Shown here one piece after another: positions 7,051 through 36,952 of a DNA stretch of 39,307 nucleotides. The notes under the pieces were generated by a model. That model was given only the letters and a program-made list of their open reading frames with translations, did no database searches and was not told where the DNA came from. The translations under genes were made by a program, and so were the position numbers. The DNA comes from Desulfobacula sp. Its GTDB lineage: Bacteria; Desulfobacterota; Desulfobacteria; Desulfobacterales; Desulfobacteraceae. The stretch lies in NCBI GenBank assembly GCA_012031875.1, contig JAAUSZ010000014.1, positions 1-39,307 of the forward strand, in the 5' to 3' direction. The stretch's first letter is position 1; every line of letters begins with the position of its first letter.

Positions 7051-7740
7051 CTATTCGTGCTGTTTTCTCCGGGCCAGGGAAAGCCCCAGCAGGGCCGAAG
7101 CAAAGAGAAGCCCGGCCGAGGGGGCCGGAACCGGAGCCGAAGCGCTTATGCTGGTCCTGTCCCAGGTCAGTTGCACCGTATCTTCAATAAAATCATGGGT
7201 GGCCGCAAACCAGGAAAAATTGCTGCCGATTTCATCAACACCGATGATCCATTCCAGCGTATACCCTGATCCATTGGCCGTCTGCTGAGTGACCGGGGTA
7301 CCGAGATTTTGCATCAATCCGTTGTTCCATTGATGAAAATCATGCTGAAAAAAGCCCTGGTCATCTTGCGCCATATTGGGATTGTAATGGCTGTCCAGCG
7401 CATAATCAATCCCTGCCTGGTTCGGCAAATAGGAATAGGAAGCCGGGCTGCCCCCGATGAAAGCGTCAATATAAATCCCATAGATCCCGGCATAATCCGA
7501 GGTCCCCGGAGCCTGGGCCAGATCCATCCGGAAATAATGAAACTCCCCATCCGTGGCGTGCCGGGCGCCTAAGATATCCCTGGCATTGCCCCAATCCTGG
7601 GGATCGGTCACAGACACCACGGAAAGCCCGGCTGGATTATCCCAATCCGGAAAGGAAACCGCCATGGCGGACGCGCTCCCCGATAAGACCGCCGCTTGAA
7701 TCACGGCGGCCAGAACCATAACCAATAACTTGTTTTTCAA
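7051..7740 (-). CDS. PEP-CTERM-type sorted exported protein
   Basis: Signal peptide MKNKLLVMVLAAVIQAAVLSGSASA; C-terminus APVPAPSAGLLFASALLGLSLARRKQHE (VPxP + TM + basic cluster); AGGAGGTG ribosome binding site upstream on the minus strand. Confidence 0.8.
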   Translation of the reverse strand: MKNKLLVMVLAAVIQAAVLSGSASAMAVSFPDWDNPAGLSVVSVTDPQDWGNARDILGARHATDGEFHYFRMDLAQAPGTSDYAGIYGIYIDAFIGGSPASYSYLPNQAGIDYALDSHYNPNMAQDDQGFFQHDFHQWNNGLMQNLGTPVTQQTANGSGYTLEWIIGVDEIGSNFSWFAATHDFIEDTVQLTWDRTSISASAPVPAPSAGLLFASALLGLSLARRKQHE

Positions 7741-9238: not shown

Positions 9239-9267
9239 TTGACAGGCTTTTTGGGCCAATTTATGAT
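9239..9267 (+). promoter_or_regulatory. Predicted sigma70 promoter of the tandem PEP-CTERM gene
   Basis: TTGACA (9239-9244), 17-nt spacer, TATGAT (9262-9267), about 60 nt upstream of ATG at 9327 with AAGAAGG ribosome binding site. Confidence 0.6.
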
Positions 9268-9326
9268 TAGGTGCGTGAGTTATGCGCATTTTTAACAGTT
9301 ACCTTAATTTAAGAAGGCGGTACCCG

Positions 9327-10469
9327 ATGTTTGCAAAAAAAATGTTTAAAACCCTTATGGCTTCCATCTTCTGTCTCACGGCAGTATCTGCGGCAGAAGC
9401 CCAGTTGGCATCACCAACCCTTTATTTCAACGGATACCTGGACTATGACGCTGATGCCCGGGTCTTTTCCGTCAACGCAACCATTACCGGACTTGAGGGT
9501 GTCACCGGGTTGACCCCGGGCCAAGGGATACAGTTTTCAGACACTGCTTCATCCCTTGACATCTCCGGCGTTCAGAATACTCCTCGAATCATGCTTTCCG
9601 GCAGTCTCAGCGGTCTTTCCTGGCTCCCGGGCTCAGATTTTTCCTCATCGGCCGATATCCTGGGGCTTGCCCTGCTCAGCAGCGGTATTGTGCTTACGGA
9701 CAGCCTGCTGTCAACGGATTTTACGGCACGGATCAACGGCCGGATGGTTTCAACTTCCCCCCCGTCACCGGTCCCTGTTCCCGCGGCCTGGCTGCTCCTG
9801 GGGTCCGGCCTTGTCCTGACGGCAGGAATCAGAAAACAGGCCAAAACCTCCAAAAAGCTCTTTGCATCTCTGATCCTGGGGCTGATGCTCCTGTTGCCCA
9901 TAAACGCCATGGCCTCCCTGTTTCTGTCTCCCTATCTGGATGTCCAGACCCTGGCTTCAGATGCGGGGGTATGGTTATCCGGAGACGAACTTACACTTAC
10001 AATGGACGCCACGGCCATTGCCCTTGGGGACCCCTATGGGCCGATTGATCCGGCCGATTTCATTTTAACGGCCACAAAAATTTCCGGCAATGATTATTAT
10101 TCCGGGACCCTGTCTGTCGGACCCGGCGGATCCTTGCTCTTCGCATCGTTCACAGACCTTTCCATCACGGTATACAGTTTTGGACTTTTATCCGGTTATG
10201 ATATCTACGCTGGCCTAACCTATACCGGCGGCCTGCTGGCCCAGGGCCTCAGTTCCGGCTTCCTTTTCGGATACACCGACAGCCTGTCCCAGGGTGACCT
10301 GTTTTCCCAGATTCACGAAATAACCCCGTTGTCGACAACCCCGGTTCCCCTGCCGTCGGCGCTGGTCTTCGTCTTTTCCGGCCTGGCAGGCCTTGCCGCC
10401 CTGAAAAAAGGGCCGGCCGGCCTAATCGAATCCTTATATCCGGTTAATCCTTTCAACACATTAAAGTAG
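9327..10469 (+). CDS. Tandem (fused) PEP-CTERM protein with two sorting tails and an internal signal peptide-like segment
   Basis: SP MFAKKMFKTLMASIFCLTAVSAAEA; first tail PSPVPVPAAWLLLGSGLVLTAGIRK; internal SP-like TSKKLFASLILGLMLLLPINAMAS; second tail TTPVPLPSALVFVFSGLAGLAALKK; extreme C-terminus (after LKK) may be a frame error. Confidence 0.75.
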   Translation: MFAKKMFKTLMASIFCLTAVSAAEAQLASPTLYFNGYLDYDADARVFSVNATITGLEGVTGLTPGQGIQFSDTASSLDISGVQNTPRIMLSGSLSGLSWLPGSDFSSSADILGLALLSSGIVLTDSLLSTDFTARINGRMVSTSPPSPVPVPAAWLLLGSGLVLTAGIRKQAKTSKKLFASLILGLMLLLPINAMASLFLSPYLDVQTLASDAGVWLSGDELTLTMDATAIALGDPYGPIDPADFILTATKISGNDYYSGTLSVGPGGSLLFASFTDLSITVYSFGLLSGYDIYAGLTYTGGLLAQGLSSGFLFGYTDSLSQGDLFSQIHEITPLSTTPVPLPSALVFVFSGLAGLAALKKGPAGLIESLYPVNPFNTLK

Positions 10470-10525
10470 TAATTTAGGGGCTGGTTTTTATATCAGCCCC
10501 TTTTCTTTGTCGAGCAGAGCGGCTG
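10421..10525 (+). repeat. Intergenic repeat, copy 1 (about 105 bp, full length)
   Basis: cctaatcgaatccttatatccggttaatcctttcaacacattaaagtagtaatttaggggctggtttttatatcagccccttttctttgtcgagcagagcggctg; closely matches 14318-14422 and the left part of 13488-13563. Confidence 0.9.
10477..10508 (+). terminator. Rho-independent terminator (inside repeat copy 1)
   Basis: GGGGCTG-gtttttatat-CAGCCCC followed by TTTTCTTT. Confidence 0.8.
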
Positions 10526-10550: not shown

Positions 10551-11651
10551 ATGAATGTTCTATTACATGATGAATCAAAACTTCGCCGCTTTATTACGGG
10601 ATATATTCTTGTCGGTTTCGGGCTGTTCCTTTTCATGTATGTAAACCAGCAGAATCTGATTTCCAGGCCCGTGAACAGCTTCACGGCCCATAGCGTCAAG
10701 GTCCTGGCCGAAATATTCAATTACCCGGCAAGTGTGGATCAGGTCACCTATACCCGGGAAAGGGGAAACGATAAAATCTTGGTGCCCACCACCCTTTTGA
10801 TGGTGGGCCGGTACAAGGCCCGGGTCATCTTGGAATGTTCCGCCGTTCACGCAGGGATTCTGCTGGTCACCTTCATTCTGGCCTATCCTGCCCCCGGGTC
10901 CCGGAAAATCTATGGGATGCTTTTTCTGGTTCCCTGCCTGGTGGCGTTCAACTCCATCCGGATTTTCATCCTGATGCTGCTGGGCCATTATTTCGGCCAG
11001 TCCAGCACCGTCTTTCATATATTCCATATCTATGTCATGCAGGTATTGATCATCGCCCTGGTTCTGGTTCTGGCCCTGGTATGGCTGCGCAGGTGCGAAC
11101 TTGGTAAGGCCGATTACCCTGTATGGTTTTTTTTGAAGTTCCTGGTCGTTTCCGCAGGGCTGGTGGTGTTGTGGTTTGGCCTGAGAAACAGGTGGGGTCC
11201 CTATTCAGAAATCATGGAGCGCTTTATTTTTCCGTTTTTGACCTTTGGCGCGCTGGTGCTGTCCGGTTCAACATTCACTCTCCGCAACAGCCGCAGGGAC
11301 ATTGTCATGGGGTTCGGGGTGATGCTCGGGTTTCTGATCCTCGGCCAGGCCGCCAGTTTCACATATGAGCATTTTCATTCTTCATCGGCAGAGCTTTTGT
11401 TTGTCATGATGAATTCAGCACTCAAATATATCCTTCCCTTTGGGTTGTTTTTTTTCCTGATACGGAAAAGCCTCTTTGTCCGGACCGACCCTTCCGGGAA
11501 ACAGGTCTTTGGCTGTCCTCTCTGCGGCAAGCAAGATATTCGGAATCTGAGAGCCCATGCCCAGGCAAGGCATAATACGGAGCTTCTACAAGAAAATGAG
11601 AGGCTTATGAGTGCCATCAAACTGATTGAAGACAGCCTGAAGGTGAAATAA
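10551..11651 (+). CDS. Exosortase/archaeosortase-family transmembrane cysteine transpeptidase with C-terminal C2H2-like segment
   Basis: Multi-TM; VILECSAVHAGILL (Cys), PCLVAFNSIRIFILMLLGH (Arg), VFHIFHIYVMQ (His) match the exosortase Cys-Arg-His arrangement; tail FGCPLCGKQDIRNLRAHAQARHNTE. Confidence 0.8.
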   Translation: MNVLLHDESKLRRFITGYILVGFGLFLFMYVNQQNLISRPVNSFTAHSVKVLAEIFNYPASVDQVTYTRERGNDKILVPTTLLMVGRYKARVILECSAVHAGILLVTFILAYPAPGSRKIYGMLFLVPCLVAFNSIRIFILMLLGHYFGQSSTVFHIFHIYVMQVLIIALVLVLALVWLRRCELGKADYPVWFFLKFLVVSAGLVVLWFGLRNRWGPYSEIMERFIFPFLTFGALVLSGSTFTLRNSRRDIVMGFGVMLGFLILGQAASFTYEHFHSSSAELLFVMMNSALKYILPFGLFFFLIRKSLFVRTDPSGKQVFGCPLCGKQDIRNLRAHAQARHNTELLQENERLMSAIKLIEDSLKVK

Positions 11652-11653
11652 CC

Positions 11654-13492
11654 ATGCTTTGTGTGCAACAAATGCTCAAGTCCTTCACCGCCCTGATTCT
11701 GTTGTTTTTTCTATTCACCGGACCCGGCATGGCCGGCTCGGATTTGCCTGTTTTTGACCCTCGCCCGAAAGACCCGTCCGGACCTGATGCTGCTAAAACC
11801 GGCCGGTATATCATTCACCTGAAAACACCTTCCGGTGAGCGTGAGCTGAAAGCCTTCGGCACCCAGGCCCTTCGAAAGGCACAGAAAGAAGCGGTCCGGA
11901 CCCTCCAGGACCGGTTCATCGAAAAAATCAGCCCGAACAAGGTCATCATCAAGCGCCGGTTTGACTATACCCGGTCCCTTGCCGTGGAAGCCTCGGCCGA
12001 AGCCGTTAAGACCCTGGAAAAAATGAATGAAGTGGATTTTGTGGAGCCGGACTATCCCTTCCAGATTCATACGGCCCAGGGCATCCCCCTGATGAATGCC
12101 CCGGCGGTCCGTTCCGTGTATGCGGGACAGGGGGTATCCATTGCCGTCCTGGACACGGGCATTGATTATACCCATGCTGCCCTGGGAGGGTCGGGATTTC
12201 CCAATGCCAAGGTCATCGGCGGATATGATTTCGGCGACGATGACGCCGATCCCATGGATACCCAGGGCCACGGCACGAGCTGCGCCGGCATTGCTGCCGG
12301 GGATGCGGCCGGAACCGGGAATTATATGGGCGGGGTGGCAAAAGACGCCCGGCTCTATGCCCTGAAGGTGACTCAGGGCAGCACCGGCACCGCCTACAAT
12401 TCAGATATTATTGGCGGCATGGAATGGTGTATCGACCATGCAGAGGATAACCCGGCCTATCCCATCAAAATCATCAGCATCAGTCTGGGCGGCGGCAAAT
12501 ACAGCACGGTCTGCGATTCGGCATTTTCATCCTTTGCCCGGACCGCAGCCATAGCCTTATCCGCCGGAATTACCCTCTTCGCCTCCTCGGGCAATGACGG
12601 ATACTGCGGCAGCCTTGCCTCTCCTGCCTGTGTCTCCCCTATTATCTCCGTTGGAGCAGTGTTTGACGCCAATATCGGCGGCGTCGGATTCTGTGTGTCC
12701 CCGGATTCCTGCGCCCCGAACCAGGGAACCCACGCATCCTGCGGCACCGACCCGGTGGCCTGGGTCTATAGCCCCGCAGCCGATATGGTGGCCCCCTATA
12801 CCAATATTGCAACCTTCCTGGACATCCTGGCGCCCAGCCATAATGCCACAGCTCCCCATGCGGGAGGGGGCTATGTCGCCGCCTTCGGCGGAACATCTGC
12901 GGCCTGCCCCTATGCCGCCGGGGCCGCCGCATGCCTCCAGAGCGCCGTCCACACCGCCCATGGCTATTTTCTAACCCCCGAACAGGTCAGGGAGGAAATG
13001 ACGGTCTCCGGCACAATGATCCAATACACCGGGACTGGTTTTTCAATGGATAAGCCCCGGATCAATCTGGGTGAAATGGACATGGATTCCGACGGGCTGC
13101 CCTCGGCCTGGGAGATTCAGTATTACGGCTCCATTGAAACACCGGTGGACACCGACACGGATGCCGACGGCCTCACGGCGCTCGAAGAATATCAGAACCA
13201 TACCGACCCCACGGATGGGGATACGGATAATGACGGCATGCCGGACGGATGGGAAGTCGCCCATGGCCTTGATCCCCTGACCCATGATGCCGACGGTGAT
13301 CCGGACGGGGACAATTACACCAATATACAAGAATATCTGGCGATGACGGACCCCGGGGAAAAGAACTCCTATCCCCTGCCGGTTCCCGCGGGCCGGCCTT
13401 TTTTAACGGGCCTGGCCTTTCTGGCCTTGGCCGGTCTCGGAATGAGAGCCATCCGGAAGGCAAAAGGCAGAACAAAGGATCGCCCAGCCTAA
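11654..13492 (+). CDS. S8 (subtilisin-like) serine peptidase with I9-like propeptide, Ca-binding-type Asp-rich repeats and C-terminal sorting tail
   Basis: AVLDTGIDYTHAALGG (Asp), GHGTSCAGIAAG (His), GGTSAACPYAAGAAA (Ser); DMDSDGLPSAWEIQYYG...DTDADGLTALEEYQNHTDPTDGDTDNDGMPDGWE; C-term YPLPVPAGRPFLTGLAFLALAGLGMRAIRKAKGR. Confidence 0.93.
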   Translation: MLCVQQMLKSFTALILLFFLFTGPGMAGSDLPVFDPRPKDPSGPDAAKTGRYIIHLKTPSGERELKAFGTQALRKAQKEAVRTLQDRFIEKISPNKVIIKRRFDYTRSLAVEASAEAVKTLEKMNEVDFVEPDYPFQIHTAQGIPLMNAPAVRSVYAGQGVSIAVLDTGIDYTHAALGGSGFPNAKVIGGYDFGDDDADPMDTQGHGTSCAGIAAGDAAGTGNYMGGVAKDARLYALKVTQGSTGTAYNSDIIGGMEWCIDHAEDNPAYPIKIISISLGGGKYSTVCDSAFSSFARTAAIALSAGITLFASSGNDGYCGSLASPACVSPIISVGAVFDANIGGVGFCVSPDSCAPNQGTHASCGTDPVAWVYSPAADMVAPYTNIATFLDILAPSHNATAPHAGGGYVAAFGGTSAACPYAAGAAACLQSAVHTAHGYFLTPEQVREEMTVSGTMIQYTGTGFSMDKPRINLGEMDMDSDGLPSAWEIQYYGSIETPVDTDTDADGLTALEEYQNHTDPTDGDTDNDGMPDGWEVAHGLDPLTHDADGDPDGDNYTNIQEYLAMTDPGEKNSYPLPVPAGRPFLTGLAFLALAGLGMRAIRKAKGRTKDRPA

Positions 13493-34359: not shown

Positions 34360-35408
34360 ATGGAAGCCTCTGTTATTACGACTTTTCGCTGCCCCATGCG
34401 GTGCAGCATGTGCGATATCTGGAACAATCCCACAGACCCTCAAAAGGAGATCACGGCCAGGGATCTTGAACGCATGCCCCTGGTGAATGTTACAAACATT
34501 ACCGGAGGCGAACCCTTGATCCGGGAGGATCTGGCCGAGCTGGTGGAGGTGATTTTCAAAAAATCCAAGCGGGTGTGCATTTCCACCAGCGGGTTCTATA
34601 CGGAACGAATTTTTTCACTGGCGGAAAGATTCCCGGCCCTGGGGTTCCGGGTGTCCCTGGAAGGGTTGTCTGAGAAAAATGATGAGCTGAGGGGACGGCC
34701 GGGGGGGTTTGACCGGGGGCTCCGGACCCTGCTGGGGCTCCGGGAAATGGGCAGAAAGGATGTGGGATTCGGGATCACGGTGTCCAATAATAATTCCAAC
34801 GATATGATCTGGCTCTATGAATTGTCCCGGCAGCTCGGAATGGAATTTGCCACGGCAGCCTTTCACAATTCATTTTATTTCCACAAGGAGGATAATAGCA
34901 TTACCAATAAGGAAGAAGTCATCGGGAATTTCCAGGTTCTCATTGAAAAGCTGCTGAAAGAGAACAAGCCCAAATCCTGGTTCCGGGCTTTTTTTAATCT
35001 CGGGCTCATCAATTATATCCGGGGCAACCGGCGGATGCTGCCCTGCGAGGCCGGAACCGAAAATTTTTTATTGACCCCTACGGCGAAATCCTGCCCTGCA
35101 ACGGCATGGAAAAAAAATACTGGTTTGAGAGTTTCGGGAATATCCGGGAAAAAAGCTTTGAAGAGGCCTGGCAGGGGCCCCAGGCCCAAAGGGTGAGGGC
35201 CTTGGTGTCCAAATGTCCGAAAAACTGCTGGATGATCGGCTCGGCCTCGCCGGTCATGAAAAAATATATCCGTCACCCTTTGAAATGGGTGATCATGAAT
35301 AAAATCAAGAGTCTGTCCGGCGGCGGGGTTAATATTAACGATATCCCCTGGTATGATGTGGGGCAAGACCCGGAACAGGGCAAATTAAGGGAGAGTGTAT
35401 CCATATGA
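34360..35408 (+). CDS. Radical SAM protein with SPASM-like C-terminus (one frameshift at ~35065)
   Basis: FRCPMRCSMCDIW (CxxxCxxC), NITGGEPLIREDL; restored C-terminus NFFIDPYGEILPCNGMEKKYWFESFGNIREKSFEEAWQG...VSKCPKNCWMIG. Confidence 0.9.
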
Positions 35409-36952
35409 AAGGTTTGAATCCTGCGGTCCAGGCTGTTATCCTGGCCCTTGCCTTTGTGGGGGCCTATTATGTGCCCTTCAGTTCCCTTTATCATACCTGG
35501 ATGACCAATGACGATTATTCCTACGGCCTGCTCATCCCCCTGATCTCCCTTTATTTTTTGTGGGAAAAGAAAAAGAGTCTGATGGCCGTCCCCATCCGGC
35601 CTTACTGGCCGGCCCTGCCGGTGCTGATCCTGTTTGTGATGGTCTCCATCTACGGCATCCTGGGGTCCAGCGGCCATATATCAAGACCGGCTCTGCCGGT
35701 TCTGATTGTTTTATTTGCCCTGTTCTGCTTTGGGTGGAATCTGTTTAAGAAAGCGGCTCTTCCCCTGTGCTTCCTGGTATTCATGATTCCATTGCCGACA
35801 GTTCTGGACAGGACCATCGGCGTTTACCTGAAAAGCATCTCGTCTGAACTGGGCGGGCTTTTTTTGAGAATTCTGGGCTATTCGGTTCATGTCAGCGGCA
35901 ATGTGATCGATCTCGGCGTGACCCAGCTTCAGGTGGTGGATGCATGCAGCGGGCTCAGGTTCTTATTTCCCCTGGTTGCCCTGGGTGTGGTGTACGGTTA
36001 TTTTTTTGAGCGGGTTTTGTGGAAACGGGTGGCCTGTGTTCTGATCACCGTACCCATTGCCATCCTGACCAATGTCCTGAGAATCGGGATTGCGGGCATC
36101 CTGACCTATAATTTCGGTTCCGGCATGGCTGAAGGCTTTTTCCACGATTTCCAGGGCTGGGCCATTTTCATGGCCTCCCTGGTTTTTCTCTTCATTTTCA
36201 GCTTGTTTTTGCGTCTTTTTTCAGCCAAGCCAAAGGATTTCCGGAAAGAGTCGGGCTTTTCAGGACTGGGCATAAAGAATAAAAACAATACCCTTGCGTT
36301 TGGTGTGTCAATGCTCCTTCTACTGGCTGTGGCCGTACTGACCTTTAATACAAAGGCCCTGCCGCCGGTGAAGATCAAAGGCGGCGTGGAAAGTTTTCCC
36401 GTCGCCTTCAGCGGATGGACCGGTAAATCAAGCCTGGTGAGCCCTGAAATCATCGAAGCATCCGGGGCTGAAGAATCATTTAATGCCGTATATCAGGATA
36501 ATGCCGGGCAGGCCATTTCCCTTTATATGGGATACCGGAGTACGGCCTTTCTGGAGAATGAGAATTTTTTTCACAGCCCCACGGTCTGCCTGCCGTCTTC
36601 GGGCTGGAAAACCATCAGCAATTCCAAATATATCATTAACGCCGTACCCGTGTTCGGCAGCCTGGCGGTAACGGAAATGGTGATGGAATCCATGGGCGAA
36701 AAACAACTGGTGTATTTCTGGTTCCAGACCAAGGACAAGGCCACCCATGACAAGAACATCAACCGGTTCCACCTGGCTTTGCATGCCATTCAAAAAGACA
36801 ATACCCATGATCTTTTCATCCGGCCCATTACCATGATTGGAAAACAGGAGTCCATTGAAATTGCAAGACAGCGGATGGATGGATTTGTAAGAGAAATGAT
36901 GGCCACCCTGGACACCTTTTTAAAGGAAAACCAGTTCGAGGAACCGGGTTAA
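35405..36952 (+). CDS. xrtD: Exosortase-EpsI fusion, XrtD (VPLPA-CTERM-specific) type
   Basis: Multi-TM N-terminus with DACSGLRFLFPLVALG, VPIAILTNVLRIGIAGI, GMAEGFFHDFQGW; C-terminal EpsI-like domain PVAFSGWTGKSS...LYMGYRSTAFLENENFFHSPTVCLPSSGWKT; exosortase+EpsI architecture. Confidence 0.85.
   Translation: MKGLNPAVQAVILALAFVGAYYVPFSSLYHTWMTNDDYSYGLLIPLISLYFLWEKKKSLMAVPIRPYWPALPVLILFVMVSIYGILGSSGHISRPALPVLIVLFALFCFGWNLFKKAALPLCFLVFMIPLPTVLDRTIGVYLKSISSELGGLFLRILGYSVHVSGNVIDLGVTQLQVVDACSGLRFLFPLVALGVVYGYFFERVLWKRVACVLITVPIAILTNVLRIGIAGILTYNFGSGMAEGFFHDFQGWAIFMASLVFLFIFSLFLRLFSAKPKDFRKESGFSGLGIKNKNNTLAFGVSMLLLLAVAVLTFNTKALPPVKIKGGVESFPVAFSGWTGKSSLVSPEIIEASGAEESFNAVYQDNAGQAISLYMGYRSTAFLENENFFHSPTVCLPSSGWKTISNSKYIINAVPVFGSLAVTEMVMESMGEKQLVYFWFQTKDKATHDKNINRFHLALHAIQKDNTHDLFIRPITMIGKQESIEIARQRMDGFVREMMATLDTFLKENQFEEPG

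Follow-up and report, generated by a model that had tools for sequence, protein, structure and literature searches.

A conserved gene of Desulfobacula with two PEP-CTERM-like units in one frame, possibly encoding a tandem preproprotein

Substrates of the PEP-CTERM/VPLPA-CTERM systems (TIGR02595, PF07589, TIGR03370; exosortase XrtD, TIGR04152) share a Sec signal peptide, a variable domain, and a tail that consists of a P-x-P motif, a TM helix and a basic end. FbcH of Bradyrhizobium, the cytochrome b-c1 precursor, is a single bacterial precursor that is split at an internal signal peptide. The PEP-CTERM tail itself has been described as virtually always C-terminal, with the suggestion that the exceptions may be non-functional (Haft 2006, PMC1569441). 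Internal sorting tails that originate from gene fusions are already known in two other systems. The Haloferax volcanii protein HVO_0405 is the fusion product of two genes, and ArtA cleaves it at a centrally located site (PMC7157517), whereas MXAN_5598 of Myxococcus contains an internal MYXO-CTERM motif that was ascribed to gene fusion, with processing proposed (PMC11980579).

We analyzed a contig of 39,307 nucleotides from a Desulfobacula sp. (JAAUSZ010000014.1; hereinafter, the window), in which positions 9327-10469 form a single ORF of 380 amino acids that starts with ATG 9327. The encoded protein consists of a signal peptide (SP1), domain 1, VPVPAAW-TM-RK, KTSKK-hydrophobic-AMA/S (the slash marks the predicted cut), domain 2, and VPLPS-TM-KK. 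Like this gene, HVO_0405 is a fusion with an internal sorting site, which in its case is cut by an archaeosortase, a relative of exosortase; it is archaeal, and its description presents one central site rather than a repeated signal-peptide/tail unit. MXAN_5598 differs in that myxosortase belongs to another protease family and, in place of a second tail-bearing unit, the protein ends in a beta-barrel with OmpA domains, whereas FbcH comprises respiratory proteins without sorting tails. Compared to ordinary PEP-CTERM substrates, the window protein carries two units per chain, one of the tails is internal, and the tail scores are below the cut-offs; as is typical of these systems, an XrtD-like exosortase is encoded among exopolysaccharide genes on the same contig. 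A tandem PEP-CTERM precursor, with a repeated signal-peptide/tail unit, was not found described in the literature searched, the coverage of which was incomplete.

A syntenic copy of the gene is located between gspF and sat in another Desulfobacula MAG (G016:C30, contig JAMPXP010000015.1). The features of the window locus are the following:

9239..9267 (+), sigma-70-like promoter TTGACA-17-TATGAT, near-perfect, also in G016
9312..9317 (+), Shine-Dalgarno-like AGAAGG, 9 nt 5' of ATG 9327, identical in G016
9327..9401 (+), signal peptide 1, residues 1-25, ending VSAAEA/Q, 96% identity with G016
9402..9767 (+), domain 1, residues 26-147, family matches being tail matches only
9768..9836 (+), internal PEP-CTERM/VPLPA-type tail 1, PVPVPAAWLLLGSGLVLTAGIRK, residues 148-170, assigned from sequence and hydropathy, dN/dS about 0.22
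9837..9914 (+), predicted cytoplasmic KTSKK loop and signal-peptide-like helix (SP2) to AMA/S, residues 171-196
9915..10340 (+), domain 2, residues 197-338, without a family match, strand-rich in a low-confidence model
10341..10409 (+), C-terminal tail 2, PVPLPSALVFVFSGLAGLAALKK, residues 339-361, assigned from sequence and hydropathy
10410..10469 (+), doubtful C-terminal extension, with a 1-nt gap near 10414 versus G016
10476..10501 (+), intrinsic terminator stem-loop followed by TTTCTTT, also in G016
35405..36952 (+), XrtD-like exosortase (VPLPA-CTERM type, EpsI domain at the C end), best model TIGR04152

There is an alternative in-frame ATG at 9282, and 9327 is preferred as the start because the ribosome-binding site points to it. 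SP1 combines KK, a hydrophobic core, an AEA/Q site and a hydropathy peak, as expected of an N-terminal Sec signal peptide. Further hydropathy peaks coincide with tail 1, SP2 and tail 2, and a weaker one falls within domain 1, so that the two-unit layout proposed in the initial annotation is borne out by both the sequence and the four peaks. Tail 2 lies near the extreme C-terminus, with about 12-19 residues following it, and tail 1 is internal. Because both the promoter and the terminator are conserved in G016, the fused gene looks like a transcription unit of its own. Over the 25 codons of SP1 (window 9312-9400), there are no synonymous changes relative to G016, the whole-gene dS being about 0.43; the region around SP1 is conserved, and the 5' end of the gene is possibly under regulatory constraint. 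The annotation had further suggested that the two halves begin similarly and arose by internal duplication, which was not supported: in local alignments with 1000 shuffles, the halves showed no detectable similarity (P=0.22 for the window, P=0.50 for G016). AlphaFold2 models (pLDDT 28 for the full protein and 36 for domain 2) were too poor for a fold search.

The G016 copy is a single open frame with 72% amino acid identity to the window protein over residues 1-362, and retains the promoter, the terminator and, in each unit, the tail and the AxA site. At the nucleotide level (20% divergence), the in-frame gaps measure 3, 6 and 9 nt and are confined to the second half of the gene, and the junction is gap-free. 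The first frame-breaking gap, the one near 10414, lies 3' of the final KK; it alters all residues beyond KK361 and shifts the stop from the homologous TAA (10445-10447) to TAG (10467-10469). Judging from this alignment, the ~19 C-terminal residues encoded in the window are probably wrong because of a 1-nt deletion. Versus G016, at least five single-base deletions, mostly in short homopolymers, are present between 4110 and 16300 of the window (in gspE, gspF and three in sat-cysC), along with two opposite-direction gaps in sat-cysC, so the contig looks indel-prone. The initial annotation had raised an indel at the junction as a concern, yet the junction itself aligns without gaps, and its inspection confirmed that no single indel there yields two complete genes.

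From tail 1 to the middle of the SP2 core, neither genome contains an in-frame ATG, GTG or TTG, and the first in-frame starts past the junction would, in both, yield a signal peptide that lacks the basic n-region; there is no usable internal start, and the second half is therefore exportable only within the fusion. A search of 86 genomes of the family identified the fused gene in these two genomes only, fused in both, with neither separate-gene relatives nor any other full relative of either half, so that the ancestral state was not observed in this set. A weak match in G028 (E 0.0025) contains five stops and was rejected as a separate-gene relative. Neither viral contigs nor a PDB sequence search gave a match. 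Given the syntenic ortholog in the same frame, with the same tails and AxA sites and a single promoter and terminator, the fusion is considered real, as originally suggested, and the gene a genuine, conserved two-unit exosortase-substrate-like gene.

Both tails display the tripartite organization, P-x-P motif, TM helix and basic cluster, in both genomes, by sequence and hydropathy. The window tails score below the curated cut-offs (13.5 versus 25.35 bits for TIGR03370 and 13.7 versus 20.7 for PF07589), and tail 2 is a weak match to the nearest VPLPA model; tail 1 of G016 comes near the Pfam cut-off (19.8 versus 20.7 bits). Three exosortase-type genes were detected in the window genome and two in G016, one of the latter sharing a contig with the fused gene at a distance of about 18 kb. 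The XrtD-like exosortase of the window (382.9 bits against TIGR04152, cut-off 400) is encoded among exopolysaccharide genes that lie 25 kb away from the fused gene and is the most likely candidate for the processing enzyme.

In both orthologs, SP2 shows a charge of +3 to +4, signal-peptide-like hydropathy and an AxA site (AMA/S or ASA/S), and this pattern is retained at an identity of only 54%. Signal peptides often conserve character over sequence, and SP2 appears to be conserved in character rather than in letters. As a control, a home-made score (not SignalP) was applied to 150 TM helices, first helices excluded, of 23 multi-pass ORFs; a strict, rightly placed AxA was found in 13, and combined with a net charge before the helix of +2 or higher in only four. 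Single PEP-CTERM proteins were scored likewise: of their 102 N-terminal signal peptides, 63 contain a strict AxA, and 56 combine it with a net charge of +1 or higher, a threshold that differs from the one applied to the TM helices. The composition, the rarity of the pattern and its retention in both orthologs thus support the internal signal peptide put forward in the annotation. In pairwise NG86 comparisons of the window with G016, based on small segments, dN/dS was about 0.42 for domain 1, 0.22 for tail 1, 0.49 for domain 2 and 0.43 for tail 2, and SP2 (26 codons, about 0.76) was the fastest-evolving segment. Tail 1, with 87% amino acid identity, is under no weaker constraint than tail 2.

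We searched about 785 Desulfobacterota genomes for similar junctions, scoring about 16-18 candidates per genome, so that the rarity is approximate; in addition, a two-sequence profile (window and G016) was run against 390 genomes of the order. The junction profile had 12 rows, of which three were real junctions and the others chimeras in which a single tail was joined to a signal peptide, both taken from related proteins. Among the matches listed in the order and phylum searches, the stop-free, full-length ones were the window, G016, G247 and G528, and the class search added no further two-tail ORF among the matches listed. G247 and G528 resemble the window gene in the signal peptide-domain-tail-signal peptide-domain-tail arrangement within one frame, with unrelated domains, and each was found in a single MAG. 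Both are weaker cases than the window pair. G247:C92 (420 aa), which surfaced with the two-sequence profile and matches the VPLPA model in two stretches (29 bits), consists of a lamin-tail-like domain, a VPIPGAVW tail, MKSTKKILAGVICVLGIFFGVSNALA, another domain and a VPIPGALW tail. At its junction (L089 716-874 (-)), eight A's run into ATGA; with one base fewer, gene 1 would end in RKK and a stop, and gene 2 would start at the junction ATG, so this fusion possibly results from an assembly error or slippage, and the fused and separate states could switch. The halves of G528:C4 (484 aa) are evident copies of each other (alignment score 489), and its unit has single-unit homologs in the same genome and family; because G528 is absent from the junction profile, its discovery is independent. 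G528 keeps an in-frame ATG at SP2, with a TGG, one substitution away from a stop, just before it. Retention of the in-frame ATG at the SP2 start in both G247 and G528, but not in the window pair, suggests a path from adjacent genes through stop loss to start loss, presumably in this order. Three other candidates were rejected: G397 turned out to be a multi-pass membrane protein, and G250 and G083 are single-tail proteins.

We favor the reading, with a probability of about 0.58, that two genes for exosortase substrates fused and stayed fused, the product being a tandem PEP-CTERM preproprotein that each of the two enzymes would cut twice. Sec would export domain 1, tail 1 would stop the transfer with RK in the cytoplasm, and the KTSKK loop with the second helix would restart translocation. 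Signal peptidase I would then cut after SP1 (AEA) and after SP2 (AMA). Cutting and anchoring at both tails would fall to an exosortase, for which the XrtD-like enzyme encoded at this locus is the most likely candidate, the outcome being two separate surface or matrix proteins at 1:1 and a discarded tail 1-SP2 hairpin. With the archaeosortase precedent of HVO_0405 (PMC7157517), such double cutting is plausible. This reading is based on the open G016 ortholog with its gap-free junction, only 3n indels before the last KK and no internal start; on the conserved SP2 pattern, rare in TM helices, and the constrained tail 1; and on the conserved promoter and terminator, the exosortases on the same contig in both genomes, the two additional ORFs, and the precedent of HVO_0405. 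The sub-cut-off scores of the window tails, the high dN/dS of SP2, the two carrier genomes only, and the earlier suggestion that PEP-CTERM motifs at internal positions may lack function (PMC1569441) count against it.

An alternative is that the fusion is real and the domains are not split, tail 1 and helix 2 linking two periplasmic domains as a membrane hairpin, with only SP1, and perhaps the last tail, processed. The rapid evolution of SP2 and the atypical position of an internal tail (PMC1569441) fit such a protein, but the n-region charge and AxA of helix 2 in both orthologs, a combination seen in few TM helices, the constraint on tail 1, and the cleavage of an internal tail by archaeosortase in HVO_0405 make it less likely. 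We consider it improbable that the protein is half-processed, signal peptidase I freeing a tail-2-sorted domain 2 while domain 1 is held by the uncut tail 1-SP2 hairpin, or, in reverse, exosortase alone cutting at tail 1. In its favor, the cuts are independent of each other, tail 1 is unusually placed, and the sequence evidence is the same as for the tandem preproprotein; against it, both genomes retain tail 1 with all three parts of the signal. Joining of two genes by a sequencing or assembly error, to which the 1-nt deletions in gspE, gspF, sat-cysC and the 3' end of the ORF would lend some credence, is largely refuted by the independent G016 assembly, fused in the same frame across a gap-free junction, and by the lack of a second start codon in both genomes.

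If the tandem preproprotein reading is correct, both the PEP-CTERM tail and the Sec signal peptide would be functional at internal positions of a chain, contrary to the 2006 view (PMC1569441), and the gene would provide a bacterial example of a surface-protein polyprotein. More tentatively, exosortase substrates might repeatedly evolve from neighboring PEP-CTERM genes into polyproteins with alternating signal peptidase I and exosortase cuts, yielding two surface proteins at a fixed 1:1 ratio. Exosortase cutting has so far been hard to follow because the removed tail is tiny. In a natural substrate whose internal tail precedes a large second domain, the cut would be readily seen as a change in size, as it was for archaeosortase with HVO_0405.

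The T2SS genes gspC, gspD, gspE and gspF flank the fused gene, and a link to the export of its product is a matter of speculation. Positions 10551-11651 of the window encode a divergent exosortase with an XrtH-like core and a C-terminal extension ending in the C2H2-like CPLCGKQDIRNLRAHAQARH, for which only distant relatives (31-32% identity) were found, in one other genus. It is directly followed by a subtilase (11654-13492) with an I9 propeptide, TSP3 repeats and a sorting-like tail, VPAGRPFLTGLAFLALAGLGMRAIRK, which sits between the fused gene and sat in the window genome only; the two are possibly a dedicated enzyme-substrate pair. Because this exosortase is absent from G016, it is not required for the fused protein, and both neighbors, missing at the G016 locus, were rejected as required partners. 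A single-tail PEP-CTERM protein (PVPAPSAGLLFASALLGLSLARRK) is encoded at 7051-7740 (-) of the window and at the same position in G016.
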